Both the position numbers and the translations under genes were made by a program. Positions 38,895 through 55,429 of a DNA stretch of 64,000 bases are shown here, in pieces (positions within the stretch are counted from its first letter, which is position 1; each line of letters begins with the position of its first letter). The DNA is from an uncultured Flavobacteriales bacterium. GTDB taxonomy: Bacteria > Bacteroidota > Bacteroidia > Flavobacteriales_G > Salibacteraceae. The notes below the pieces were generated by a model. It was not told the DNA's origin. It saw only the letters and a program-made list of their open reading frames with translations, and made no database searches. The stretch is from positions 1 to 64,000 of the forward strand of contig CALCCE010000050.1 of NCBI GenBank assembly GCA_937899835.1, read 5' to 3'.

Positions 38895-41800
38895 ATGAAC
38901 AAACCTATGAGACCATATCTACTCCTGCTAACCGTAATGCTTTCTTTGGGAAGCATTTTTAAGGCTAATGCTGCTGCCACCATTTCGTCCACCGTAACCA
39001 GTGAAATGGAGGTTTGCCTAAACAGCGAAAGTTTTGAACTGGTGATCGTCAACGACTCTACCGCAACCTTGACCAATGTGTCGGTAGTGGTCGCGCTACC
39101 TTCAGGAATTCGATATGTCTATGGTTCTTTGTTTGAGACAACATATAGTAAGGTGCAAGAACAAAATGTGGTGAAGAACAACAATTTGATTTTTAGTTCA
39201 GGAAATATACCCGCGGGCGACAGCATCAAATTTTCGATAGCAGTAGCGGCCTTTCAGGATGCCATCACCTTTCAGGATGCAGGAAACATTTTTCGCAATA
39301 CCGTTACCATCCATTACGATGGAGGCTCCGAAACGCACGTGAGTGATGCGTATAACATCTTGTATCCTGCGCTCACCATTCTTTCCGTCTCTCCCAATGC
39401 CGCGACCATCTTGAGTGGTAACTCCCTCACGCGCAATGTAACCGTTATTAATGGCGGAAACGGCAAGGCCAGCACCGTGTACCTCACTGACGTGAGAAAT
39501 GCTTCTACCTTAACATTGGATGCCACGTCTCTTGGAACGATCAGTGGAGACACTATTGTGCTCAGTGGAAGTGATTTCAACGGTGTTGGAAACAGTGACA
39601 ATTACCTTGATCAGAACGAGTCTTTTACGTTAACTCAAACCTTGTCGGGGACAAGTTGTGTTGACGTTACGGTGACTTCTGCCATTAATGCTCACTGGGG
39701 TTGTGATGGTGACCTTTTGAGTACTTCCACCAGCTACGGCAACGTTAGTATCGATTTCCAAAGCCCCAAACTTGCTCTCTCCGGTACTGAAGTCCTGGAG
39801 GATTGTTTTGGTTCGGGTGCGCCCTCCAACCAAACGATGCGCATCGTCAACAAAGGAACTGGTGTGGCATCCAACATTGATGTTTCGATTTTTAAGTCCA
39901 CCGGAGGCACTTACAACCAAACTATTTTTTCCCGATTTGATCCTGCTTCTCTCCAATACAAAGTAGGGCAGAGTGGTGCCTTTACCACCGTTACCGGGAT
40001 GACGAGTACCGCCACGCAGAACACCGGAGATTATAGCTGTTTGGGGACAAACCCGGTGGGAAAAATGGATTTTACGCTGGTGAACATCCAACCGGGCGAC
40101 ACCATTTACGTGGCCTGGGACATGTACTCCTGTTGCGTGCAAACCTGCAACAACGAGGCGGTGAAAGGCTGGCGCGCTGAACTGAGTTATTCTGATGTAT
40201 GTGCTACCACTCTCTACACCGCCTCGCTTAACGGGCAAAGCAGGAACAACCACTTGATTTCTTTTACCACCGAAACGCCCACCGACATCATCGACGGAGA
40301 GGATGAAGACTTCACTTTTATCGTATCGAGTTTTGAAAACGACCTGCCTGCAGGAGACGGAGCCAGCTACAAAGTGACCTTTACGCTGGAACTGGGATTG
40401 GTGTACGAAAACCTAAAGTTTCATTCCAACGGCGTTCAATGGACGCCTCAATCCATCAATTATTCCAGCAACGTGGTGACGGCTTTCTTTCCGGCAGCGG
40501 CTCCTTTTACGGTGCCTAAAAGTGAAATGGAACTGACCCTTTCTGGCAGTTGTGGCAGTCCGGGCTGGAAAACCATTGAGATGGACCTGGCCTACCTTCC
40601 AGATACTTCTTGCACTACAGGTTGTGAAATTCCGATGGAGTGTGACCTGGAGGTGGAGACGTATTTACATTGCCCGGCCGTGGGTTGCGCAGGCCCGAAC
40701 GTACTCGCTTTTTCGGTGCTGCGCACCAATTTTGGATTGCCCGACAACAACCTGGATGGCATGGCCGACGGTAGTGGAGCGCTTAATCTATCCGAAATAA
40801 AGCGCAACCGTGCCATGGTAGGAGATACCATTGAAACGGTGGTGACCTCGTTTGTGAAGTCTTCAGGAACTACCTGGAACTATGGGGCCTTTACTTCCTC
40901 GATCGACTATGGCAGTGTATTGAGCTTTGTGAATGCCACGTTGACCATTTACGATTCCAGTGCAGCTACCCACTTCATCGTTACCAACCTTACTCCCACC
41001 ACATCCATATCCAATCATCAGCAAGATTTTAGTTTTGATCTTGCCACCGCGAACCTCAGCGCTTTAAATCCGGCTCTTTCCGGCTATTCCTACGCTGGTG
41101 GCGACTCCATCGAACTTCGGATCAACTACCGGGTGAGCGACAATGTGAATGGATTGCTTCAGGAAACCACTTTTCTGAATGAGTTTTACCTGAGTGCAGT
41201 GGCCAATCCAAGCAATGGCCAAAAGGAATATTGCAATTTTAAAAACGGCCGCATTACCCTCATTGGCTACGATTGGAGAAACAATTCCCAAAACAGCCTT
41301 ACGGTAACGTCCTGTACCAAAGTGGTGAACCAATATTGGGGAATGTCCATTGGCGATCTTTCTTCCAACTACGGAGGGGGCAACCTGTTCCCCTACGAAT
41401 ACCGCTATTGGGGACAAATCAAGGAGGCCTGGTTGGTGTTGCCGCCCAATTATTCGCACGTCAACACAATTTTAAAACACTGGGGTACTAAGAAAACCAA
41501 TTCCACGAACAGCCAAACGGTGAACAACGTTTCTCCTGACCAGGTCACCGGGGACACCCTTTATTACAACATGGCCCAATACTATTCATCGGGCCAGTTC
41601 AAGAAGAGTGACGATGGGTTTCACGGTAGAATTCAGGTAGAAATTGCGCCCAATTGCGATGTGCCAGAGAATCAATACGAAGACATGGTTTGGATTTTCA
41701 ATTACGAAAAGTCGGATGCCATTGATGGAGCAGAATCGGGTCAGGTGTTGGCCTCGTCCAACGACCGGATTCGCTACAAGCGCTCTGCGTTGCAACCCAT

Positions 41801-44800
41801 TTCAGCCAATCCTACTCAAGATGCGAATACCCGTAAGGTGGTTTGGGATTATAAATTGAAAAATACTTCGAGTTCGGGTGCCGACAATGCGTGGATCCAT
41901 TTTATTCCGCCGAGCAATTTCACGATTGATTCGGTGGTGAATGATGCTACGGGAGCTTTGCTCACACTGCAAAACGACATTTATCGGGTGGGTGAAATCA
42001 AGGCCAATGCTTCTGCTGATCTGAGCATTCACGGCACTTTCAGCAGCTGCGATACGGTGCGTGTGCTTACTTACACCGGCTACGAGTGCACAGGCTATCC
42101 CACTGATTTCGCCAGCTTTGCCTGCCCTTATGAGAATTATTCGCTCTACGTAGAGCCGAAGCCTTCGGCCTACCAAACCCGAATTTCCACGGAATTGGGT
42201 GCTGACCCCTGCAACGCGGAGTTGGAGTTGGAAATTGACATCACCAGCGTGAAGTTGGCACACATGTTTGACATGACGATCGACTACATCACGCCTGACA
42301 CGCAAAAGATCAGCGTAAAGCCCAATACCTCGGAGTTTCTTTACAACATTTCTAATGCGTACACCAGCATAGCCGATCCCGCATACGACAACGGGTCGAA
42401 AACCTACTCCTTCGACATCAACGATTACAACAGCGCTTTCGCGCTGGACGGTATTCCTGGTGTGCTGGACATCAACAATAACCGCTACAAACTCAGCACC
42501 ACCTTAAAGCTTGGAGATCAATTCCAAAACGGAGATTTCTTGCAGGTGCAAATCAATGGTGCCAACGCTTGTAATGTGCCACTGCAAACCATCAACCTGG
42601 CCATTGATCCCAACATGAGTTTTGAGAAAGACAACACTGCAGGACTGCATTTGGACAACATCGACAGTTGGAGTGCCTCTTGGGGCGACTATACCGGTGA
42701 TGGATACGACGACCTGTTCGTTCCTTCCAAAGATGTAAATGCTCAAAACCTGCTCTATCAAAACAATCAGGACGGTACGTTTACCAAAATTACTTCTGGT
42801 CCTGTGGTAGAAGATTTAGGAGCCGCAGTGGCCGGCACCTGGGGGGATTACGACAACGATGGTGATGTGGACCTATTTGTGACTTATCAGGCCAACGCCC
42901 CCAACCGGCTCTACCGAAACAACGGTGACAGCACGTTTACCCGTGTAGCTAATTCAGTCCTCAGTCAGGGAGGCATTTACGGTCATTCGGCGGCTTGGGC
43001 AGATTACAACAAAGATGGAAACCTCGATTTGATGGTGGCGAACTACCACGTTACCCACTTCAACCACCTCTATTACGGGGATGGCAACGGAGGGTTTACC
43101 AAAGACCAAAACAGTGTGATTGCCCAATCGGCTACATCAGCGGTTGGGGTAGCCTGGGGCGACTACGACAACGATGGGGATGCTGATCTTTTTCTGGCCA
43201 ATACCAATGGGGAAAACAACCAGTTGTTTCGCAATGATGCCGGACTGTTCGTAGAAATCACCAGCGGCAATGTGGTGAACGATGGCGGAAACTCGGTAGG
43301 GGGCACCTGGGGCGATTACGACAGCGATGGTGACCTGGACCTGTTTGTGACCAATGCCAGCATGTTGGAACCCAACTTTCTTTACAACAACAATGGAGAT
43401 GGCACTTTCACTAAGGTGACTTCAGGTGCCATAGTGACCGACATTTCAAACGCTCATGGAGCTTCCTGGATCGACTACGACAACGATGGCGATTTGGATT
43501 TGACAGTGGCCAACGATCAATTCAACAATTTTCTCTACTCCAACAATGGAGACGGCACCTTTACCAAGCTTACCAATGCCATTACTGAGGAAACTGGTAA
43601 CTCTTTTGGCGTGTCGTGGTCCGACTTTGACAACGATGGCGATTACGACCTTTATGTGGCCAATCGTGGCAACAGCAAAAACGACTTTTTCATCAACGAG
43701 AAAGGCTCTTGCACGAACCACATTGTAGTAGACCTTGAAGGATGCATCTCGAACCGGGATGGTATCGGTGCCAGAATTGGGGTGAAAGTCACCATCAATG
43801 GTGCTTCAGTTTGGCAGTATAAGCATGTGTCTACTCAAACTTCGGGCATGGCCGGGCAGAACTCGAACAAGATACTGTTTGGCTTGAACGATGCTACTGC
43901 GATTGATAGCCTGGTGGTAGAATGGCCATCGGGAGTGGTTTCTTACCTCAATGGAGCGGCTGTCAACCAAATTCATAAAATCAATGAAGACTGCGCTTCG
44001 AAAGTTTGTGGAATGGTGTTCAACGATCAAAATGGAAACGGGGTGCAAGACTTGGGAGAGAAGGGAATTCCCAATGCGAGTCTTACGGTAAGTCCTGGCG
44101 GGTTTAAGGTATACACGGACGACAACGGTTACTACCAACTGTACATTGGTGACGGCTCCTATACCATTGCCTTGGATACCAACTCCAAATGGACACAAAC
44201 CTTGCCCGTGGCTAATGGCGGTTACACCTTGGTGGTGGACAAGGCTACGGCTACCGAATACTGTGGCAACGACTTTGGCCGGAATGCGGTTTGCAGCGAT
44301 CCTGATTTGAGCTTGAGCCTTGGAACCACTGCTTTCCGCAGGGGTTTGACCAACATGCTCAATGTGGTGGTGACCAACGAGGGCGCTTACGATGCCACCG
44401 AGACCATTCAGGTAGACCTGACGATGACCGACAACGTGTACATCCTCGATACAGACTGGACCCAAGGGATTGCACCGAGTGGCTATCGTGCTTATAGTCT
44501 GACTTTTTCAGGGCTGGACCAATTGAGCGATACGATTTTTGAATTGACGGATTCTGTGGCCTTGAGTGCCGGATTGGATGATTTGGTTACGGTGGAAGCG
44601 GAAATCAGCTATGCGAGCAGCGAATGCGATACCACCAACAACACGTATTCCATGACCGACATCGTGGTGGGCTCTATTGACCCGAACGACAAAATGGTGA
44701 TGGTGCAAGACCTGGGTAAATCCGAAGTAGCTCACCGGAACGAGGTGTTGATCTATAAGATTCGGTTTCAAAACGTAGGCACCTATGCGGCCCGCATTGT

Positions 44801-45362
44801 GCGCATTGTGGACGAGCTTTCGCCCGATCTCGATTGGAGTACTTTCCAAATGGAGAGTTCTTCTCACCCTTTCACCGTGTCGGTGGTAGATGGCGTAGTA
44901 GAATGGGTAAACCGCAACATCGAGTTGCCCGATTCTGCCTCGAACCCGGAAGGCAGCCAAGGATATGTCACTTTCTCCATCCTGCCGAAGAAAGATCTGA
45001 AACTGTACACTTTGATCGAAAACGAAGCAAAAATTCAGTTCGATTACAACGACTTTATCGTTACGAACAACACCCAGATCTACGTGAAGCCGATTGACTA
45101 CGAACCAGTAGTACCGGTGGTGACGCTTTATCCGAATCCAACCAGCGATCAGGTTCATGTGCATTTGGTGGACATCGACCGCCAACTGATTGAAATGGAC
45201 CGCATTGAAATACTGGACATCAACGGAAATACGCGGCAGGAACACCGCGGAGAACCCGTATTCAAAAAGCGGTTGGAAGTGGGTTTCTTGCCCAGCGGAG
45301 TGTATATCGTTCGCGCCTGGAATGGCGAAGCAAGCTACGCTACTAAACTGGTGATCTTATGA
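38895..45362 (+). CDS. Giant FG-GAP/ASPIC surface protein with T9SS signal
   Basis: A 2155-aa secreted protein. In order: signal peptide (to about residue 27, ANA|A), a long DUF11/CARDB-like beta-repeat region (30-1250), seven FG-GAP/VCBS-like repeats with Ca2+-binding D-x-D-x-D-G-x-x-D loops (WGDYDNDGDVDLFV and similar, about 1255-1590), an ASPIC/UnbV domain (about 1610-1700, DGIGARIGVKV ... VVEWPSG), an SdrD B-like module (GMVFNDQNGNGVQDLGE), a CARDB-like module, a DUF7619-like repeat (GSIDPNDKMVM to YVKPID) and a T9SS type A domain (LYPNPTSDQVHVH). It is probably an outer-surface adhesin or propeller scaffold. Followed by a clear terminator. Confidence 0.85.
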   Translation: MNKPMRPYLLLLTVMLSLGSIFKANAAATISSTVTSEMEVCLNSESFELVIVNDSTATLTNVSVVVALPSGIRYVYGSLFETTYSKVQEQNVVKNNNLIFSSGNIPAGDSIKFSIAVAAFQDAITFQDAGNIFRNTVTIHYDGGSETHVSDAYNILYPALTILSVSPNAATILSGNSLTRNVTVINGGNGKASTVYLTDVRNASTLTLDATSLGTISGDTIVLSGSDFNGVGNSDNYLDQNESFTLTQTLSGTSCVDVTVTSAINAHWGCDGDLLSTSTSYGNVSIDFQSPKLALSGTEVLEDCFGSGAPSNQTMRIVNKGTGVASNIDVSIFKSTGGTYNQTIFSRFDPASLQYKVGQSGAFTTVTGMTSTATQNTGDYSCLGTNPVGKMDFTLVNIQPGDTIYVAWDMYSCCVQTCNNEAVKGWRAELSYSDVCATTLYTASLNGQSRNNHLISFTTETPTDIIDGEDEDFTFIVSSFENDLPAGDGASYKVTFTLELGLVYENLKFHSNGVQWTPQSINYSSNVVTAFFPAAAPFTVPKSEMELTLSGSCGSPGWKTIEMDLAYLPDTSCTTGCEIPMECDLEVETYLHCPAVGCAGPNVLAFSVLRTNFGLPDNNLDGMADGSGALNLSEIKRNRAMVGDTIETVVTSFVKSSGTTWNYGAFTSSIDYGSVLSFVNATLTIYDSSAATHFIVTNLTPTTSISNHQQDFSFDLATANLSALNPALSGYSYAGGDSIELRINYRVSDNVNGLLQETTFLNEFYLSAVANPSNGQKEYCNFKNGRITLIGYDWRNNSQNSLTVTSCTKVVNQYWGMSIGDLSSNYGGGNLFPYEYRYWGQIKEAWLVLPPNYSHVNTILKHWGTKKTNSTNSQTVNNVSPDQVTGDTLYYNMAQYYSSGQFKKSDDGFHGRIQVEIAPNCDVPENQYEDMVWIFNYEKSDAIDGAESGQVLASSNDRIRYKRSALQPISANPTQDANTRKVVWDYKLKNTSSSGADNAWIHFIPPSNFTIDSVVNDATGALLTLQNDIYRVGEIKANASADLSIHGTFSSCDTVRVLTYTGYECTGYPTDFASFACPYENYSLYVEPKPSAYQTRISTELGADPCNAELELEIDITSVKLAHMFDMTIDYITPDTQKISVKPNTSEFLYNISNAYTSIADPAYDNGSKTYSFDINDYNSAFALDGIPGVLDINNNRYKLSTTLKLGDQFQNGDFLQVQINGANACNVPLQTINLAIDPNMSFEKDNTAGLHLDNIDSWSASWGDYTGDGYDDLFVPSKDVNAQNLLYQNNQDGTFTKITSGPVVEDLGAAVAGTWGDYDNDGDVDLFVTYQANAPNRLYRNNGDSTFTRVANSVLSQGGIYGHSAAWADYNKDGNLDLMVANYHVTHFNHLYYGDGNGGFTKDQNSVIAQSATSAVGVAWGDYDNDGDADLFLANTNGENNQLFRNDAGLFVEITSGNVVNDGGNSVGGTWGDYDSDGDLDLFVTNASMLEPNFLYNNNGDGTFTKVTSGAIVTDISNAHGASWIDYDNDGDLDLTVANDQFNNFLYSNNGDGTFTKLTNAITEETGNSFGVSWSDFDNDGDYDLYVANRGNSKNDFFINEKGSCTNHIVVDLEGCISNRDGIGARIGVKVTINGASVWQYKHVSTQTSGMAGQNSNKILFGLNDATAIDSLVVEWPSGVVSYLNGAAVNQIHKINEDCASKVCGMVFNDQNGNGVQDLGEKGIPNASLTVSPGGFKVYTDDNGYYQLYIGDGSYTIALDTNSKWTQTLPVANGGYTLVVDKATATEYCGNDFGRNAVCSDPDLSLSLGTTAFRRGLTNMLNVVVTNEGAYDATETIQVDLTMTDNVYILDTDWTQGIAPSGYRAYSLTFSGLDQLSDTIFELTDSVALSAGLDDLVTVEAEISYASSECDTTNNTYSMTDIVVGSIDPNDKMVMVQDLGKSEVAHRNEVLIYKIRFQNVGTYAARIVRIVDELSPDLDWSTFQMESSSHPFTVSVVDGVVEWVNRNIELPDSASNPEGSQGYVTFSILPKKDLKLYTLIENEAKIQFDYNDFIVTNNTQIYVKPIDYEPVVPVVTLYPNPTSDQVHVHLVDIDRQLIEMDRIEILDINGNTRQEHRGEPVFKKRLEVGFLPSGVYIVRAWNGEASYATKLVIL

Positions 45363-45394
45363 GGTAAACCAAGGTAAAGGTTAAGCGATGACAG

Positions 45395-45434
45395 GGCTCG
45401 GTTCACATAGGTTAGGTGTGGGCCGGGCCTTTTT
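45395..45434 (+). terminator. Terminator after the giant surface protein gene
   Basis: A 13-bp stem with three G-T pairs (45395-45407 with 45417-45429) is followed by five T (45430-45434). Its right arm and T run also match, as an inverted repeat, a segment at 45506-45524, so two mutually exclusive folds are possible. Confidence 0.8.
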
Positions 45435-45573: not shown

Positions 45574-48264
45574 ATGCTGTTACCCCGTTTCTTCTCAACT
45601 TGTGTTGACTGGTTGCTGGTTTTTCTTCTGTTGGGAGGATGCCTGTTTCCGCATGGGGTGGCCGGGCAGCAACCCGAAGACAAGTATTACAGGGATGTGG
45701 ACGGCCTGGCTTCCAACTCCGTTTTTCAGCTTCGAACGAGGGCGGATGGAAAAGTTTGGATGGCTACTTCGAAGGGCATTTCAAGCTTCAACGGAATTAC
45801 CTTCAGGACTTATAATCAGGATCATGGGCTGGAAGATCGGGCTGTTTTTGGCTTGCGCGAATCGGAGGATGGTACCCTCTACGCCTACACCTACTCGGGG
45901 GATGTCTATTTCCTCGAAAAGGATTCGTTTCGCCTGGTGCCCTTTAGTCGTTTGGTGAAGCACACCAAGAGGTCTTACATCATGGACCTTGCTTTTAAGG
46001 GAGACACCGTTTGGGTTGGATATACCGGCAATCCTCCCGTGAAGGGCATTGGGGAGAAATGGGAACTGGTAGACGAAGTTATCTTGGAAGGACCGGATGC
46101 TTTTGCGGCCTACCGCAGGCAAATTGGTCACCATCAAAACCTCATTGGGTATGTGGCCGGAGGAATAGACTCATTGGTTTTTAAGTTGACGGACTCTCTT
46201 GGGGCAGATCAACGCCTTGTGATCGACCGCCCGGGCAGGGCCGGTTATATTGGATATTCTTTTTTGGAGACAAGGGAGGGGTACCAACTCTTTTGTATGG
46301 AAAATGTGATGGTGTTGTATGACCCACAGACAGGGAGCTATCGGAGGCTGCCTTTCGTGGCCAATTTTTGTACGAACTCCATTTTTCAAGACGCAGCGGG
46401 CTACGTTTGGGTAGGAACCTTTTACAGTGGCGTCTACCAGCTGGATCCTCAACAGGATTACATGCCAGTCAAGCGCCTTTTTCCGCAAAGAACCATTACG
46501 GCAATTGCTGAAGACCGCGAAGGTGGTTTTTGGTTTAGCATTATCGGCGGAGGAGTGCTTTATGTTCCTCAACCCGAAGTGATCAACTACCCTTTGGGGC
46601 AGGAGGCTGCGTATGAAAACCCAATCCATCTTTTCGTAGGGAACGACAGTTTATGGGTTCAAACCCGGCAAGGCAATGTATATGGGTTGAAACCGATGGT
46701 AGAAGACCCTTATTTGCTCGCTCCTTATCGCTTACAATCGACCGATGCTTTGGCCGATCAGCTGGTGACGGATGCGCTACCGGAGAAAATTATCCCTGAA
46801 GATTTAGAAATCGATGGGTTGGGAGACTACCGGGTACTCGCCATGGTCAAACGAGCTGGATGGACGTTTGTAGGCACGGAAACCCAAGGATTGATCGTGC
46901 GTTCGGCGGACGGTAAAACCATCCAATATGATGGAAAAGGTGGTGAGGATTTAAACATAGCCTTTCAAGCCTTGGCGTTTAGTTCAGACGGGGATTTGTG
47001 GGCCGGAACCAACCGCGGGGTTTATCGATACGCATGGCAGGGAGACTCGTTGCGGCAAAAATCATGGTATCGGAGCGAGAATGGATTTTCGGAGAAAGAA
47101 ATTAATGCGCTACTGGAACATCAAGGTAAAATGTGGGTGGCGGGTAAGGATAAACTTTGGTCGATTCCGATTGCTAAAGTGCTCCAACCTTCGAATGCAC
47201 CATTGATTGAAGTTACCCAAACGGAGGTGCAGCGCGGTGCTGAACGTACTGCTTCGCTCTTGGAAGAACTCAGCTATGAGGACAACAACATCTATTTTCA
47301 TTTTCAGGGAACCCTGTTCCAGCACGACGGGAAGGTGATCTATGAATACCGACTAAAAGGCCTTACCTCCACGTTTCAAAAAACACAAGATCAGACAGTA
47401 TTCTATCCTTCTTTGCCCAGTGGCGATTACACTTTTGAGGTACGCATTTTCAACGGTGACGGTATTCCTGGAACAGCTACTGTGCACTTCACCATTCCTC
47501 CTCCTTTTTGGAAAACCTGGTGGTTCATTCTGCTGGAAGTGATCACGGTTTCGGCCATTCTTTATTTTTTCATTGATTACCGCAACTACATCCGCAATGA
47601 GCGGTACAAATTGCAACTTGCCTTGGCCGAAAGTGAGCAAAACGCACTTTCAGCGCAGATCAATCCCCGGTTTTTGCACAATTCTTTGCGCTCGGCCATT
47701 TCGTTCATTTTAAAAGGAGATGCTTCCAAAGCCGCTGACCACCTGGCCAGTTTTTCGGTGTTGATGCGACTGGTATTGCGCAACACCCGAAATTCGAAAG
47801 TAACGGTGAAAGAAGAGGTCGAGATTTTACGACAGTACCTCGAACTGCAATTGCAACGCTTTGATGATCGGTTTCAATTTCAAATTGAAGTGCAGCCAGA
47901 AGTAGATCAAGACCATACGATTTTGCCTACCATGTTGATTCACCCCCACATAGAGAATGCCATTTGGCATGGATTAAAAATGGGAAGCCTAGAAGGGACG
48001 ATAAAAATTGGTGTATCGCAGGATGAAGAGCATTTGTATTGGAACGTGGAAGACAATGGCGTTGGTCGTGCCAAGACAAGGGGCAATTCGAGTCATCGGG
48101 GCATGGCGGGATCGGGAATTGCTATTTCGAAAAATCGGATTGACTTGTTGAACAAGGGCAGCTATGCTGGCTTCGATATGACCATTACCGACCTTTTGGA
48201 TGAAGAAAAACAGCCGTCGGGCACCCAGGTGGTGGTAAAAATACCCCGTCATTTCAAAGCGTAG
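45574..48264 (+). CDS. Propeller-type LytS-like sensor kinase with altered H box
   Basis: The 896-aa protein has an N-terminal signal/TM segment, a Reg_prop-type propeller sensor (about 30-560; VWMATSKGISSFN and later WAGTNRGVYRY blocks), a Y_Y_Y domain (YEYRLKGLTSTFQKTQ ... GDYTFEVRIFNGDG), one TM helix (about 648-668) and a His_kinase/HATPase module. In place of the NPHFLYN phospho-acceptor motif it has NPRFLHNSLRSA, with Arg699 (CGG at 47668-47670) where His is expected. The N box (HPHIENAIWHGL) and G box (VEDNGVGRAK) look intact. It may be a pseudokinase, possibly paired with the following kinase, whose GTG start shares a base with this stop (TAGTG). ATG 45574 is preferred to GTG 45568. 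Confidence 0.85.
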   Translation: MLLPRFFSTCVDWLLVFLLLGGCLFPHGVAGQQPEDKYYRDVDGLASNSVFQLRTRADGKVWMATSKGISSFNGITFRTYNQDHGLEDRAVFGLRESEDGTLYAYTYSGDVYFLEKDSFRLVPFSRLVKHTKRSYIMDLAFKGDTVWVGYTGNPPVKGIGEKWELVDEVILEGPDAFAAYRRQIGHHQNLIGYVAGGIDSLVFKLTDSLGADQRLVIDRPGRAGYIGYSFLETREGYQLFCMENVMVLYDPQTGSYRRLPFVANFCTNSIFQDAAGYVWVGTFYSGVYQLDPQQDYMPVKRLFPQRTITAIAEDREGGFWFSIIGGGVLYVPQPEVINYPLGQEAAYENPIHLFVGNDSLWVQTRQGNVYGLKPMVEDPYLLAPYRLQSTDALADQLVTDALPEKIIPEDLEIDGLGDYRVLAMVKRAGWTFVGTETQGLIVRSADGKTIQYDGKGGEDLNIAFQALAFSSDGDLWAGTNRGVYRYAWQGDSLRQKSWYRSENGFSEKEINALLEHQGKMWVAGKDKLWSIPIAKVLQPSNAPLIEVTQTEVQRGAERTASLLEELSYEDNNIYFHFQGTLFQHDGKVIYEYRLKGLTSTFQKTQDQTVFYPSLPSGDYTFEVRIFNGDGIPGTATVHFTIPPPFWKTWWFILLEVITVSAILYFFIDYRNYIRNERYKLQLALAESEQNALSAQINPRFLHNSLRSAISFILKGDASKAADHLASFSVLMRLVLRNTRNSKVTVKEEVEILRQYLELQLQRFDDRFQFQIEVQPEVDQDHTILPTMLIHPHIENAIWHGLKMGSLEGTIKIGVSQDEEHLYWNVEDNGVGRAKTRGNSSHRGMAGSGIAISKNRIDLLNKGSYAGFDMTITDLLDEEKQPSGTQVVVKIPRHFKA

Positions 48265-51200
48265 TGAAACGGCATCAACATAACAAAGAGAGACGATTTT
48301 GGCTACTGGGGAGCGCTTTATCAAGGTGCTTTTTCTGGATTTGTTTTGTGGGCACAATCGGGCACTACAACCTGTCTGCACAAATACCCAACTACACCCA
48401 TTACGATCTTGAAGCTGGCCTGCCTTCCCAGGTAATCAATTGTATGATGGTTGGACATGATGAGGCGCTTTGGTTTGGAACTAACCAAGGTGTAGCGCGC
48501 TTTGATGGCAATGCCTTCCAACGCTTTGGAGCTGAAAAGGGTTTGACCGACTTGTCCGTTGTAGACCTATTAGAAGACGATCAGCAGCGGCTGTGGTGTA
48601 GAACCAGCCACCAACAAATTTTTGTGCTGGAAAGCGATTCCTTTCGCTTGGTGGACATGGGTTGGAAGCAAGCAGTAGCAAGTCCGGATGCTGCCATCAG
48701 CAGTTGGCTGGTTCGGGGAGATACCGCTTGGGTGGCATGGGCGCCTGGGGGCTTGTGGCACGCCACAGGAATTCATTCTACCACCGAAAAACCGAATTTA
48801 GAACGCATTGCTACCGGTAGTCAAAACTACCTCTACGAATGCGGTATAGGTCAGTTTCTGGACGGAGGTGTGGCACCTGATACAGGATTGTCTTTGTCGA
48901 TCACGCGAATCGGCGACCCCAGTCAAGTGCTTGATCTGGCACCCATAGATACCTTCCAATCGGGCAACTTTACTGCCTTGCCGGTGCAGGAAAATTGGTT
49001 GATGGCTTTTCAAAATAAGCTCTTCCTGCACCAGCCCGATTCAGGGTCGAAAGAAAATTGCGCCTTTCGCAACACCCATGTGAAGGCGGCATTGTTTCAG
49101 GACCGCAAGCATTTAATTTGGGTAGGCACGGTGGGTGATGGCGCGTATGTAATTGATCCGGATAGCGATTACAGCATCGTTGGAAATTACCTGCCTGGGA
49201 AAACCGTTACAGCGATTGCACAAGATTATGAAGGTGGTTACTGGTTCGCGACCTTAAACGATGGTGTTTATTACGCCTCGGCTCCGTTTACGGTAGATCA
49301 TCTTACGGTTTTGAATGGCAATCGGATTACTGCCCAAGATGTATTTGACTTTCAGGGTGCGCTGTATGCGCGGACGATACCCGTGTACTTTTTTCGACTT
49401 CAACTGGAAAAGAATGGCGACTTTAAATACGACCCCATCAAGTTGCCGGTGAACAAAACCATTCACTCCCAGCGAGTGGTGGGGGATTACCTCTACTATT
49501 CTTCGATTCAGGGTTTTTACCGGATGGACAACGACCATCAATCAACCAAGGTGGCGCACGGATGGGGCAAGTACATGGTCGTTGATTCGACAGGGATGTA
49601 CCTGTTGAGCAACCGGTTGGAGTTCCTGGCGCATGGAAAAGCACCTACCGAAGAAGAGATTTTATTGGAGGATTTTTGTCAGCCCGTTTCCATTGAAAAA
49701 GAGCAAGATAACTCGCTGTATGTAGGCTGTAATGATGCCATTCGAAGGATTTTTATCGATAAGGAAAATGACACGGTGCAGGTGGATACCCTTTGGGAGG
49801 GGAGGGGCGTAGCTTTCACCTTGCTTACTAAGCATTGGTTGCTGGCGACCATCAATAGGAAAGGCTTGTTGATGTTTGATCGACGGCGGATGATGAAGGG
49901 GGAGTCTCCCGACCCGGTGACCTTAGCCCTTGATGAAAGCCTGGGGGCGAAGTCTTTGGGAAGAATGTATCAAACCTTGGATGACGATTTGTGGGTATCC
50001 AGCGATGTTGGGCTTCTGCGATTTCAATACACCGACGATACGTTCCAACTCAAAAAGATCTACCAAACCAAAGAAGGTTTTCCGCCCAACAATTTTGTGT
50101 TGAACATGCATGAGTTTGAAGGGCGGTTGTGGCTTGCCACCAGCGCAGGTCTATATTCCACACCCATCTATGAGGAAGAATTACCTACGGTAACTCCAAA
50201 GATGAACATCAGCCGGATGACCCTCCAGCAAGACGGGGAAGAGCTGGAAACCGATTCAAAAAACCTATCCCATACCGATAACAACATCCACTTTTATTTT
50301 GCAGGCACCACCTTTGCCAATGCCGGCGATATCCCTTACCGCTATCGCTTGTTGGGCTTGGATTCTACTTTTCAGGAAACGAAGGACCAGCAGGCCTTTT
50401 TTCCAGCTTTGCCTCCCAATTCCTACACCTTTGAGGTAGCGGCTGCCAACAGCAAGGGACAGTGGAGCGAAACGCCTGCGCGTTATACGTTCACGGTATT
50501 GCCCCCTTTTTGGAAAACCTGGTGGTTTTATGCCTTGGAAGCTTTGGCGGTAATCGCGGTTCTTTATGGAATATCGTGGTTTCGAAACCGGGTGCGGAAA
50601 GAACAACAGGAGTTGAAAATGGCCATGGTAGAAAGTCGGCAAAAAGCCCTTTCGGCACAAATCAATCCTCATTTCTTGTACAATAGTCTCAATTCTGCAC
50701 AGTACTACATCATTGACGATGACCCCCGCAGCGCAGCCAATCATTTGGAAAGATTCTCCGACCTGATGCTTCGGGTGTTTCAAAACACCAGCGTCACTGA
50801 AGTAACCTTAGAGGAGGAGTTGGCCATTTTGAAGCTGTACATGGAGCTGGAGCAGGAGCGTTTTGAGCATGCCTTTACTTTTTCAATTGAGGTAGACGAT
50901 GCCTTGTCGGCTTCTCAAATTATGATCCCTACCATGCTCTTGCAACCGCACGCTGAAAATGCCATTTGGCACGGCTTGATCAGAAGCAAGAAAAAAGGAG
51001 GACACGTGAACATCATTGCCCGAAAAAAAGAAAATGGTTTTTTGCTGTTGGTCGAAGACAATGGAATAGGCCGCAAAAAATCCAAAAACCTGAAGCAAGC
51101 CTCCGAATACCAGTCTACCGGCATTCAAATTACCTTGGAGCGCATTGAGTTGTTGAACCGCAAGAAGCAGGGCGGATACGCCATGGAAATCATCGATTTG

Positions 51201-51275
51201 CAAACTGCAGATGGCCAGGCGGCTGGAACCAGGGTGGAACTTTCTTTTCCGCTGGAACTTCCTGCTTTCAGCTAA
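48264..51275 (+). CDS. Propeller-type LytS-like sensor histidine kinase
   Basis: A 1003-aa paralog of the preceding protein: N-terminal signal-like segment, propeller region with Reg_prop motifs (ALWFGTNQGVARFDG), Y_Y_Y domain (YRYRLLGLDSTFQETKDQ), TM helix (WFYALEALAVIAVLYGISWF), then His_kinase with a canonical H box (QINPHFLYNSLNSA, His803) and HATPase with QPHAENAIWHGL and EDNGIGRKK. It should phosphorylate a LytTR response regulator, the nearest being at 51699. GTG start overlaps the previous stop codon by one base; no ATG precedes residue 41. Signal unknown. Confidence 0.88.
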   Translation: MKRHQHNKERRFWLLGSALSRCFFWICFVGTIGHYNLSAQIPNYTHYDLEAGLPSQVINCMMVGHDEALWFGTNQGVARFDGNAFQRFGAEKGLTDLSVVDLLEDDQQRLWCRTSHQQIFVLESDSFRLVDMGWKQAVASPDAAISSWLVRGDTAWVAWAPGGLWHATGIHSTTEKPNLERIATGSQNYLYECGIGQFLDGGVAPDTGLSLSITRIGDPSQVLDLAPIDTFQSGNFTALPVQENWLMAFQNKLFLHQPDSGSKENCAFRNTHVKAALFQDRKHLIWVGTVGDGAYVIDPDSDYSIVGNYLPGKTVTAIAQDYEGGYWFATLNDGVYYASAPFTVDHLTVLNGNRITAQDVFDFQGALYARTIPVYFFRLQLEKNGDFKYDPIKLPVNKTIHSQRVVGDYLYYSSIQGFYRMDNDHQSTKVAHGWGKYMVVDSTGMYLLSNRLEFLAHGKAPTEEEILLEDFCQPVSIEKEQDNSLYVGCNDAIRRIFIDKENDTVQVDTLWEGRGVAFTLLTKHWLLATINRKGLLMFDRRRMMKGESPDPVTLALDESLGAKSLGRMYQTLDDDLWVSSDVGLLRFQYTDDTFQLKKIYQTKEGFPPNNFVLNMHEFEGRLWLATSAGLYSTPIYEEELPTVTPKMNISRMTLQQDGEELETDSKNLSHTDNNIHFYFAGTTFANAGDIPYRYRLLGLDSTFQETKDQQAFFPALPPNSYTFEVAAANSKGQWSETPARYTFTVLPPFWKTWWFYALEALAVIAVLYGISWFRNRVRKEQQELKMAMVESRQKALSAQINPHFLYNSLNSAQYYIIDDDPRSAANHLERFSDLMLRVFQNTSVTEVTLEEELAILKLYMELEQERFEHAFTFSIEVDDALSASQIMIPTMLLQPHAENAIWHGLIRSKKKGGHVNIIARKKENGFLLLVEDNGIGRKKSKNLKQASEYQSTGIQITLERIELLNRKKQGGYAMEIIDLQTADGQAAGTRVELSFPLELPAFS

Positions 51276-51698: not shown

Positions 51699-52439
51699 GT
51701 GAGCGACATTAAAGCAATCATTATCGACGACGAATGGAAGGCAAGAGAAGCCTTGAGTAAGTTGATCAACCGGCATTGCCCGGAGGTAGAAATTGTAGCG
51801 ATTTGCGAGAACCTTGTGGAAGGCAAAGTTGCCATCTTGGAGCGGGTGCCGGATTTGGTTTTCTTAGACATTAAAATGCCCGAGGACAACGGTTTCGACC
51901 TGTTGCGGGATGTGCCTAACCGGCAGTTCAAAGTCATATTTGTGACCGCATATCCCAATTTTGCTTTGGAAGCCTTTGATGAAGGAGCGATCGATTACTT
52001 GCTGAAGCCCATTCATTCGGAGCGTTTGATCAAAGCCATTGCGCGTTTTAAAAGTCATGGGGAAGTGATCAGTAAAGCACCGACACCAGCGCCACCGGTA
52101 ACGGTTCCCTTGGGAAAAGTGGGGTTGCCTACCGAAGATGGATTAGAATTCTTTGAAGCGGAGGATATTTATCGCTTCCGGGCCAAGGGAACACATACGC
52201 TGATGTACTTGGCCTCTGGCGAGTGCCTCAACATTGCCCGCAACCTCAAAAAGATTGAAGACGCGGTAGCCCACCTCGGGTTTTTCAGGGTGCAAAATGC
52301 CCACCTGGTTAACTTGAACTATATCAAAAAGATCAAGAAAATTGATGGAGGATTTGTGGTTTTGCAAGATGGCACAGAAATCGAAGTTTCCCGCAGAAAA
52401 AAGACCAAGCTGTTGAAAATATTTCAGGAAAATCAATAG
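51699..52439 (+). CDS. LytTR-family response regulator
   Basis: The 246-aa protein has a receiver domain (D10-D11, phospho-acceptor D57 in VFLDIKMPE, K103 in YLLKPI) and a C-terminal LytTR DNA-binding domain (about 145-243; DIYRFRAKGTHTLMYL, FFRVQNAHLVNLNYI, GTEIEVSRRKK). It is the likely partner of the LytS-like kinase upstream and binds DNA at direct repeats. The start is GTG 51699 with no earlier in-frame ATG of similar quality. Target genes are not known. Confidence 0.92.
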   Translation: MSDIKAIIIDDEWKAREALSKLINRHCPEVEIVAICENLVEGKVAILERVPDLVFLDIKMPEDNGFDLLRDVPNRQFKVIFVTAYPNFALEAFDEGAIDYLLKPIHSERLIKAIARFKSHGEVISKAPTPAPPVTVPLGKVGLPTEDGLEFFEAEDIYRFRAKGTHTLMYLASGECLNIARNLKKIEDAVAHLGFFRVQNAHLVNLNYIKKIKKIDGGFVVLQDGTEIEVSRRKKTKLLKIFQENQ

Positions 52440-52706
52440 TGGGAATCGGAGCGCAGCGGTTCTGTCTTCGTCCCGCTTTTCATTGGAAATAAACCTTCTT
52501 AAATATTATCTCCTTCGGCAATATACTTTCGGGTCATTACCTGAAAATTTCTAAGAACTGACGGAGAATTTTTGTTTTTACCTTTCGAGGTAGCGTTCAT
52601 CTTCCAAACCGGTAGCATTCGCGGCAACTTCTTCGGCATTCAAGTCAATTAATTGAGTATCATCGTTAAAATTGTTTTATTCGATGGGTAATGGTACTTG
52701 AGTTAC

Positions 52707-54692
52707 ATGCGGACCTGCCTTAGTTTTTGTTGTTGTATGTGCCTGTTTTTTGTTGCCGGATGGGCGCAGAAAACCACACAAATGCCTTCAGATACCATTG
52801 GTGCGGAATTTAGTAAAACGGACTTGCACCGCCTGATAGATTCTCTGGTGGACAACCGCAAATACTCCTTAGCAAAAGCCACTACACCCCAGCTAATGGG
52901 GGCCTTCTCCCTGCTGAAAGAACAAGAGGAAAGCAGAGCCGAGTTGGTGGCACAGTTAGCGGTATACGAGGAATTGTTCAAGCGTGGGGAGATCAAAGCG
53001 GCCATCCGTTTGGGCAATGCCTTGTTGGTGCAGGCCGACTCGTTTTCGGCCACGGACCAGTACAGTTTGTACTACACCTTGTCGAGTGCTTATTTTAACC
53101 TGGGGTATTACGACAAATACCTGGAATTGCTTCCCAGGAAGCACCAGGCCTCCCGGGGGTATTCCAATTCTTTTAAGGTGGACTTGGAAGAATACTCCGA
53201 TCTCGCTTTGGTGTATCACCGAATGAAGCAATACGACAAGGCACGCCTCTACAACCGAAAGATCATTCAGTTGAATGCCGGAGAGCCCAGCTATGCCGCT
53301 TCTCACAGTTCATTGTACAACAACATTGCGCTTACCTTCCGGGAAGAGCAACAAACGGATAGCGCACGGTTCTATTTTCACAAGGCTTTAGCGTTGGCCC
53401 GAAAAGGTGTATTCAAAAAAAATAACGCCCGGTTTTCGAAACTGTACAAAGCACATTTTATCAATGTGATTGAATCAGACATCGCCTACCTCGATCAGCG
53501 CCCCGAAAACCACCCGCGAATCATCCAATGTTTGGAAAAGGAAGCCGCTTCTGCCCAACAGGTGAGTGAAGCCAACATCTACCTCAGTGCCTGGAACAAG
53601 TTGGGGCAACTCTATTTCGAACGTCAGGAATGCACCAAAGCACTGCACTACCTGCATTTGGGAGATGAAGAACTCAACGAAAAAAATCCGCAAGGCGAAC
53701 TGTATTTCAATAACCTTCAATTGAAAGCCAAGATTGCCCTCCTGCAAGGCAAACAGGCGCTCGGCAACCAGCTTTTTGAAAAAAGTCAGGCCATTAGAGA
53801 TGCTTTAGAAGCGCAGCGTAGTCGTGGTATTACGGAGGTGGCAGCCATTCTTTACGAAATCGACAACAAGGAAAAAGAAATAGAAGAGCAGCAGTTGCGA
53901 CTGGTCGAAAAGAACGATGAAATCCAGCAGCAAAGAAGAACCCAATTGGTATTCATTGCTTTTATTTCCGTGTTGAGCCTGTTGTTGTTGGTGTTGTACC
54001 GCTTTGTGCGGAAATTGAACAAGCAAAAACAGATCATTGAGCAACAAAAAACAGCGGCCAACGATTCGCTGAAGCAGAAAGAAATGTTGCTAAAGGAAAT
54101 CCATCATCGGGTGAAAAACAACCTGCAGGTGGTGTCTGGTATATTGAACAAACAAGCTCAAAAATCGCCTGATCCGGAGGTAAAGGCATTGATGGAAGAA
54201 GGCAAGAGTCGGATCAAATCCATGGCGCTCATTCATCAAAAACTCTATCAAACCGAAGACTTTACCCAAATCGATTTTGCTTCTTACGTAGCCGATCTTT
54301 CCCGGTCCATTGCGCTGATGCACCAGCGGCCCGGGGCCACCATTGAATTGGAGCAGGCCATTCCCAAACTGTTTTTCCACATTGATGTGGCGGTTCCGTT
54401 GGGGCTGATCATCAACGAACTGCTCACGAATGCCTACAAGCATGCTTTTCCACACTTGAGGCCTGGAAAAGTGAAAATTACAATAGTGCAAAAAGAGGCG
54501 CACCAATTTGAATTGACCGTAGCCGATGACGGAGTAGGTTATCCGTCCGATTTTGAACAGGTTTCCCAACGCTCCCTGGGCATTGGATTGGTGGAGGGAC
54601 TGGCATGGCAACTGCGCGGAAAATTCACCTATCGCCAAAAGGCAGGAAGCGTGTTTACAGTAGCATTTACAGACCAACTCAAACCCACATGA
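52707..54692 (+). CDS. TPR sensor histidine kinase, HisKA_2 type
   Basis: A 661-aa protein with a signal peptide (MRTCLSFCCCMCLFFVAGWAQ), periplasmic TPR-like repeats (about 40-380), a coiled coil (KEKEIEEQQLRLVEKNDEIQ), a TM helix (LVFIAFISVLSLLLLVLYRF), then a HisKA_2/HWE-related dimer domain with H466-H467 (EIHHRVKNNLQVVSGIL) and HATPase (NELLTNAYKHAFP, DDGVGYP, GIGLVEGLA). It likely phosphorylates the LytTR regulator whose ATG overlaps its stop (ATGA). ATG 52707 is used instead of an upstream TTG at 52698. Confidence 0.9.
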   Translation: MRTCLSFCCCMCLFFVAGWAQKTTQMPSDTIGAEFSKTDLHRLIDSLVDNRKYSLAKATTPQLMGAFSLLKEQEESRAELVAQLAVYEELFKRGEIKAAIRLGNALLVQADSFSATDQYSLYYTLSSAYFNLGYYDKYLELLPRKHQASRGYSNSFKVDLEEYSDLALVYHRMKQYDKARLYNRKIIQLNAGEPSYAASHSSLYNNIALTFREEQQTDSARFYFHKALALARKGVFKKNNARFSKLYKAHFINVIESDIAYLDQRPENHPRIIQCLEKEAASAQQVSEANIYLSAWNKLGQLYFERQECTKALHYLHLGDEELNEKNPQGELYFNNLQLKAKIALLQGKQALGNQLFEKSQAIRDALEAQRSRGITEVAAILYEIDNKEKEIEEQQLRLVEKNDEIQQQRRTQLVFIAFISVLSLLLLVLYRFVRKLNKQKQIIEQQKTAANDSLKQKEMLLKEIHHRVKNNLQVVSGILNKQAQKSPDPEVKALMEEGKSRIKSMALIHQKLYQTEDFTQIDFASYVADLSRSIALMHQRPGATIELEQAIPKLFFHIDVAVPLGLIINELLTNAYKHAFPHLRPGKVKITIVQKEAHQFELTVADDGVGYPSDFEQVSQRSLGIGLVEGLAWQLRGKFTYRQKAGSVFTVAFTDQLKPT

Positions 54693-55429
54693 CGAAGCCC
54701 ATCAGTGTTTTGATTGTTGAGGACGAATTCCTCACCGCCGATACCATCAAAGATGGATTGGAGGAAATTGGTTACCGCGTTTCAGGGATGGCCAAAGATG
54801 CGGTGGAAGCCTTTACCATTTTGGAGAAAGGACATACTGATATTGCCATTTTAGACATCAACATTCAAGGTGCCCGAGACGGGATTTGGCTGGGAGAGCA
54901 AATCCATCAAAAATTCGGGATACCCTTCTTGTACCTCAGCGCTTACAGCGATGCCGATACCCTGCAAAGTGCCATTGCAACGCAGCCCCACAGCTTTTTA
55001 GTGAAACCGTTCAACAAAGTAGACATCTACTCTTCCATTGAATTGGCGTTACAAAATTTTGCTCGTCTCAAAGGAACGCAAGTGCAGAAAGAAGCAGAAA
55101 GTGCTCCCTTGCTGAAAGACGATTACCTGTTTGTGAAACAAGACCACTTGTATTGCAAAGTGGTGCTGCGCGATATCCTGTATGTACAATCGGAATTAAA
55201 ATACGTGCAGATCTTTTTGCCGCATAAAAAATACCTGTTGCGCTTCAACCTCTCCGACATGCTCGCCATGCTGCCCGCCGAAAGTTTTGTGCAGGTGCAC
55301 CGCTCCTACCTTGTGAACAAAGACCATATCGACGAAATGGGACCTGATTTTGTGCGAGTAGCCGACCAAAAAATTCCGCTCAGTGCTTCGCATCGGAAAA
55401 ACCTGCGGAAGGTTTTGAACATGCTGTAA
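54689..55429 (+). CDS. LytTR-family response regulator
   Basis: The 246-aa protein has a receiver domain (E11-D12, D56 in AILDINIQG, K106 in FLVKPF) and a C-terminal LytTR domain (about 140-245; DYLFVKQDHLYCKV, FVQVHRSYLVNKDHIDEM, QKIPLSASHRKNL). It overlaps the upstream kinase by 4 nt (ATGA) and forms a kinase-regulator pair with it. A longer reading from 54605 lies inside the kinase and was rejected. Confidence 0.93.
   Translation: MTKPISVLIVEDEFLTADTIKDGLEEIGYRVSGMAKDAVEAFTILEKGHTDIAILDINIQGARDGIWLGEQIHQKFGIPFLYLSAYSDADTLQSAIATQPHSFLVKPFNKVDIYSSIELALQNFARLKGTQVQKEAESAPLLKDDYLFVKQDHLYCKVVLRDILYVQSELKYVQIFLPHKKYLLRFNLSDMLAMLPAESFVQVHRSYLVNKDHIDEMGPDFVRVADQKIPLSASHRKNLRKVLNML

Follow-up and report, generated by a model that had tools for sequence, protein, structure and literature searches.

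Histidine kinases are usually regarded as symmetric homodimers, and mixed dimers of chains with complementary defects have mostly been made in the laboratory. Two-protein kinase splits and pseudo-histidine kinases are already known. In Rhodobacter sphaeroides, CheA3 and CheA4 carry the acceptor and kinase functions on two partner proteins, neither of which autophosphorylates alone (PMC3591291, PMC6829392), while in Caulobacter DivL the acceptor His is replaced by Tyr with the other kinase motifs kept, and the protein acts through the regulator DivK (PMC4211667). The pseudokinase RocA modulates the related active kinase CovS and still carries a His, though it can do without it (PMC7028121); native ChrS and HrrS heterodimerise, the ChrS pseudokinase having come from a laboratory-evolved frameshift (PMC9491836); and the kinases RetS and GacS heterodimerise and integrate signals, with RetS inhibiting GacS (PMC12189002). 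Closest in composition are the pyruvate-sensing pairs BtsS/BtsR and YpdA/YpdB of E. coli, each made of a LytS kinase and a LytTR regulator (PMC5552118, PMC10653868). What we have not found described is a natural tandem duplication of LytS kinases with single-residue losses that complement each other: the searchable literature, outside which most subscription papers lie, holds no description of a tandem LytS pair of this kind.

The window analyzed here, a 64,000-nucleotide stretch of DNA from an uncultured Flavobacteriales bacterium, encodes two tandem LytS-type kinases, K1 and K2, followed by a response regulator (Table 1). Both kinases score far above the curated PF06580 cut-off of 25.2 bits (67.1 bits for K1 and 72.2 for K2) and have a LytTR regulator nearby, as expected of LytS-type kinases; both N-termini read as signal peptides, and the sensor parts are 31% identical. 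The K1 frame is intact over 898 codons, its residues being numbered here from the upstream GTG, two above the ATG-based numbers (Arg701 = Arg699). The GTG of K2 is the earliest ATG, GTG or TTG start downstream of the preceding in-frame stop, and the one-base TAGTG overlap of the two genes, already noted in the preliminary description, is borne out by the sequence.

Table 1. Features of the K1/K2 locus, in window coordinates.
Feature	Position	Strand	Description
K1	45568 (GTG) or 45574 (ATG)..48264	+	Reg_prop propeller, Y_Y_Y, membrane helix, PF06580 DHp and ATP domain
K2	48264 (GTG)..51275	+	Layout as K1; canonical acceptor His, helix-2 Arg lost
K1 stop/K2 start	48262..48266	+	TAGTG, K1 stop and K2 GTG start, one-base overlap
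K1 Arg701	47668..47670	+	CGG at the phospho-acceptor position
K1 Arg734	47767..47769	+	CGA; helix-2 Arg 33 residues past the acceptor, kept
K2 His803	50670..50672	+	CAT; phospho-acceptor
K2 Leu836	50769..50771	+	CTT; replaces the near-invariant Arg; Arg837 is next
Response regulator	51699..52439	+	REC and LytTR; probable common partner of K1/K2

Set beside the described systems, K1/K2 would resemble CheA3/CheA4 in being a kinase split over two partners that autophosphorylate together but not singly, as our preferred explanation predicts; the latter belong to the CheA family and lack whole domains, whereas K1 and K2 are two near-equal membrane LytS kinases of PF06580, outside the CheA family, that are altered at single residues (with loss of an ATP site added in other lineages). 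The likeness of K1 to DivL is one of pattern only, in that the acceptor His alone is replaced while N-box, G1 and G2 are intact; DivL is of a different kinase family and, unlike K1, has no tandem duplicate with a complementary loss. No complementary residue loss is reported for RocA/CovS or ChrS/HrrS, and RetS and GacS are hybrid kinases rather than tandem duplicates. BtsS/BtsR and YpdA/YpdB share the combination of LytS kinase and LytTR regulator, but we found no His-less partner described for either.

At the acceptor position K1 reads QINPRFLHN and K2 reads QINPHFLYN, and the K1 ATP-binding region is normal, with the motifs ENAIWHG, EDNGVGR and GSGI..NR intact; the preliminary description was right on all of these points. 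K1 therefore lacks the acceptor His of the LytS PHF motif, which K2 has, and is a LytS homologue rather than a kinase of the canonical type. Both His codons (CAC and CAT) are two base changes away from CGG, so a single base-calling error cannot account for Arg701. K1 alone among the 60 PF06580 domains of its own genome lacks the His, and it is the sole exception among 245 unique homologues (244/245), a figure for which 161/162 is the fairer value since 84 of these sequences were retrieved by their His motif. A DNA pattern for Q-x-N-P-Arg-F-x-x-N has a single match across 395 genomes of the class, while its His version has about 180 matches summed over 60 genomes.

K1 has no orthologue among 42 genomes of the order, where the best match is 45% identical, and scanning genome contigs with K1 returned only distant relatives of at most 41% identity. 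An orthologous pair with the same Arg is likewise absent from the 42 genomes of the order and the 395 of the class. The idea that Arg might be conserved in a clade of paired genes finds no support in these genomes; other lineages carry Gln, Ala, Glu, Ser or Asp, and what recurs is a tandem pair with one His-less member, not Arg itself.

K2 carries a change of its own, at another near-invariant residue, and the original proposal of a normal catalytic kinase beside a pseudokinase has to be given up on this account. An Arg in helix 2, 33 residues past the acceptor, is present in 161/162 sequences of our first set, the exception being Leu836 of K2, and in 241/245 of the wider set, where K2 (Leu) is joined by L206 (Ser), L196 (Gln) and L053 (Ala). 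K1 keeps this residue as Arg734. In a set of 140 long sensor kinases, K1 alone departs from His and K2 alone from Arg in the respective columns, and in twelve other tandem pairs both residues are present wherever the sequence is complete. The residues flanking Leu836 are in register, indicating a substitution and not an indel. An alignment shift was considered as a source of the apparent loss and rejected: one structure alignment gaps Arg837 into place, but the flanking FS and NT align gap-free. Since a single base change separates CTT from the Arg codon CGT, the codon alone leaves a base error in K2 possible; moreover, by our estimate about 1 in 12 kinases departs from the consensus in some column with at least 97% conservation, so the loss of Arg in K2, taken alone, is weak evidence. 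Arg837, one residue later, might also substitute for the lost Arg. A short LytS-type frame of 228 aa elsewhere in the same genome (L290:5989-6672, contig C252) has DPHFLHN and no Arg, and is probably degenerate or a fragment.

In both AlphaFold models (mean pLDDT 90.5 and 89.3), the hairpin turn (76-78) is as far from the acceptor (model residue 61) as from the Arg position (94), and by helix register the two positions should therefore face each other. The nearest solved structure, GanS (6swj/6swk), has an Arg at the same spacing; our literature search found no publication on that structure, and no explained role for the near-invariant LytS-family Arg in the papers that could be searched.

The two kinases appear to have arisen within an existing signaling unit. 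In a full-length tree K1 and K2 are sisters (support 98/93), joined next by a kinase on contig C218 (99/97) and then by G003:C2 and a pair on contig C129, while a smaller tree of kinase domains only does not fix the branching order of K1, K2 and the C218 kinase. The C218 and G003:C2 relatives each consist of a single kinase and, after it, one regulator of that same type, and the nearest relatives of the window regulator are the regulators of C218, G003:C2 and C129, which together argue that the kinase was duplicated within a kinase-plus-regulator unit. K1 and K2 probably share the LytTR regulator of Table 1. The same genome also holds arrays of two to three near-alike tandem propeller-LytS kinases in which every copy has both His and Arg (L041 on contig C7 and L040 on contig C126); these arose by recent duplication in a genome that has 60 such domains in all.

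Beyond K1, a scan for non-His acceptor codons in 247 genomes of the class yielded two true LytS kinases without His, each adjoining a His-bearing kinase without Arg. In G223 the His-less member carries Gln at the acceptor and retains Arg, and the kinase next to it retains the acceptor His and also has a His where the Arg belongs. In G275 the acceptor is Asp and that kinase is also without Arg (Ser), beside a neighbor that has kept His and has no Arg. When the neighbors of the previously found Arg-less kinases L196, L206 and L053 were inspected, L196 proved to overlap a His-less neighbor (Ala) that keeps Arg, and neither L206 nor L053 had a His-less neighbor beside it. The true His-less LytS kinases found here outside the window come from three lineages, all in tandem with a His-bearing kinase, and pairs occupy four separate places in our tree (window, g69, f34 and f69), which was built by a quick method and has some long branches. 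LytTR-type regulators adjoin the G223, G072:C6 and G275 pairs.

Homologue searches recovered 24 pairs in the G223 genus, one per species. The His-less partner, here called A, has Gln at the acceptor in 23/24 and Arg in 24/24, and the His-bearing partner, B, has His in 24/24 and has lost Arg in 23/24. Pairs of the genus g216 follow suit, with Glu and Arg in A and with His and either Ala or Gly for Arg in B. In the G223 genus A no longer has the N-box Asn and His or the G2 glycines, and B keeps its ATP motifs; K1 differs from the His-less partners elsewhere in keeping its entire ATP site. Values of dN/dS between close species are 0.12-0.39 for A and 0.10-0.36 for B, and A is under purifying selection. 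In one pair of genus g69 (L294, genome G421), A retains His though its ATP site is gone, and the adjacent B is apparently frameshifted in the ATP domain.

K1/K2 has every feature of such a split pair: tandem genes, a His-less kinase with Arg, a His-bearing kinase without it and a LytTR gene nearby. Two other loci share these features only in part. The f69 pair, also found in a second f69 genome, has a His-less partner that is without Arg as well, and a second pair in G072 (L335/L339, on G072:C9) has an A that is His-less (Ser, RVAPSFLLN) with Arg and a B that keeps both His and Arg. The latter exception may be an early stage or may possibly reflect a different mechanism. The early-branching L308 of the G223 genus likewise has an A that lacks His and a B whose Arg is still present; together with L335 it suggests that A's His goes first and that B's Arg is then free to go.

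The His-bearing partner is without Arg in 4/4 lineages, compared with 2/242 other His kinases (Fisher, 1e-7), a count that includes both the window, as the discovery case, and the f69 family, where the background of Arg loss is high. With those two excluded the figure is 2/2 (2e-4), one of the two having been found partly through its missing Arg, and restricted to loci found without regard to Arg it is 2/3 (6e-4). Lone His-bearing LytS kinases with Ser for the helix-2 Arg (LLSYML) occur in the f69 clade, for example L371-L380, and their close relatives keep Arg. Of these Ser-bearing lone f69 kinases, 10 were inspected, and all 10 are without a tandem partner within about 7 kb. The strict rule that a kinase without Arg must have a His-less partner is therefore rejected: Arg can be lost where no such partner exists, and the helix-2 Arg is not strictly essential.

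We think it somewhat better than even (probability roughly 0.55) that K1 and K2 pair as an asymmetric heterodimer in which a single phosphorylation site is productive. In this proposal, a tandem duplication of one propeller-LytS kinase, partnered with one LytTR regulator, gave rise to two kinases that would be co-translated and would meet through their DHp helices, their two propellers reading two periplasmic signals. K2 would supply the acceptor His803 and, through its intact ATP domain, probably also the ATP, and His803 would be phosphorylated either by that domain or by the still-intact ATP domain of K1. K1, which could not be phosphorylated at its acceptor site, would add the second sensor and the Arg734 that K2 is missing, and the phosphoryl group would pass from His803 to the LytTR regulator. 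The notion that the co-made pair acts as a heterodimer, first put forward in the preliminary description, gains support from the tandem setting of the other true His-less LytS kinases found and from the pairs conserved in 24 species. Several observations count against our preferred explanation: K1 has no close orthologue, lone His kinases of f69 carry Ser for Arg, the L335 pair has Arg in both partners, the His-less f69 partner is itself without Arg, Arg837 might stand in for the residue lost from K2, and K1 has an entire ATP site where the His-less partners elsewhere do not.

The simplest account of the losses is that A's Arg serves B's His, B's own Arg becoming dispensable once A is His-less. 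If Arg does act across the dimer, all of the losses recorded (His in K1, Arg in K2 and, elsewhere, the ATP site in the partner without His) lie in one and the same unused site. That Arg734 acts in trans on the K2 site is an evolutionary argument that we advance tentatively, at slightly less than even odds. To a similar degree, these pairs may constitute a recurring class of LytS kinases that work only as heterodimers and have given up one of their two composite active sites, with His and ATP site on one chain and Arg on the other. If so, the pattern of losses would show the helix-2 Arg of the LytS family acting across the dimer interface, and in lineages where A has no ATP site, B would have to be phosphorylated by its own ATP domain, that is, in cis. 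Natural pairs with complementary losses in separate lineages would then offer a direct view of which residues of one chain act in the site of its partner, a duplicated kinase that gives up one site would be a simple evolutionary route to a two-signal receptor, and the role of the near-invariant Arg would become testable.

Several other readings of K1 deserve consideration. It may be a regulatory pseudokinase in the manner of DivL or RocA, which binds K2 or the regulator and tunes a homodimeric K2, the Arg change in K2 being of no consequence or made good by Arg837. In K1 only the His is missing and every ATP motif is kept, as in DivL (PMC4211667), and both the existence of lone Arg-less kinases and the Arg adjoining the lost position fit this reading. 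We nonetheless consider it unlikely, because pure regulation does not predict that elsewhere the His-less partner keeps exactly the Arg that its His-bearing partner lost.

A less probable alternative is that K1 is a recently inactivated duplicate heading to decay, with no lasting function. Its Arg occurs in no other genome searched, it has no orthologue in the genomes searched, and in the kinase domain it has the longer branch of the two (0.68, against 0.44 for K2). Against this, the frame is intact with all ATP motifs kept and overlaps K2, the change from His to Arg requires two base changes, and His-less partners elsewhere are conserved under purifying selection; over the full length, K1 and K2 have equal branches (1.35 and 1.39), at odds with wholesale decay of K1.

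The phosphatase activity of several kinases is independent of the acceptor His, and K1 could be a dedicated phosphatase or a phospho-regulator sink for the LytTR regulator that opposes K2. The Asn at +4 of the acceptor, which may serve dephosphorylation, is kept in K1 (NPRFLHN), but 8/24 of the A partners in the G223 genus are without it and K2 has an Asn of its own, and we regard this role as improbable. Finally, the suggestion that the His one helix turn later (H702 in ATG numbering, here His704) has taken over as acceptor in an active K1 can be set aside, as a His at +3 is likewise present in kinases whose acceptor His is normal (L053, and G096 with QMNPHFIHN) and other His-less partners show no consistent His there, having Phe, Leu or Ser.

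Directly upstream of K1, positions 38895-45362 encode a very large exported protein with FG-GAP-like repeats, and a terminator-like 16-bp stem at 45393-45431 may separate that gene from K1; a scan for promoters and terminators gave counts no higher than in shuffles. Just downstream of the regulator, a TPR-HisKA_2 kinase and a second REC-LytTR regulator are encoded in overlapping frames (52698-55429), so that two types of kinase with LytTR regulators lie side by side.
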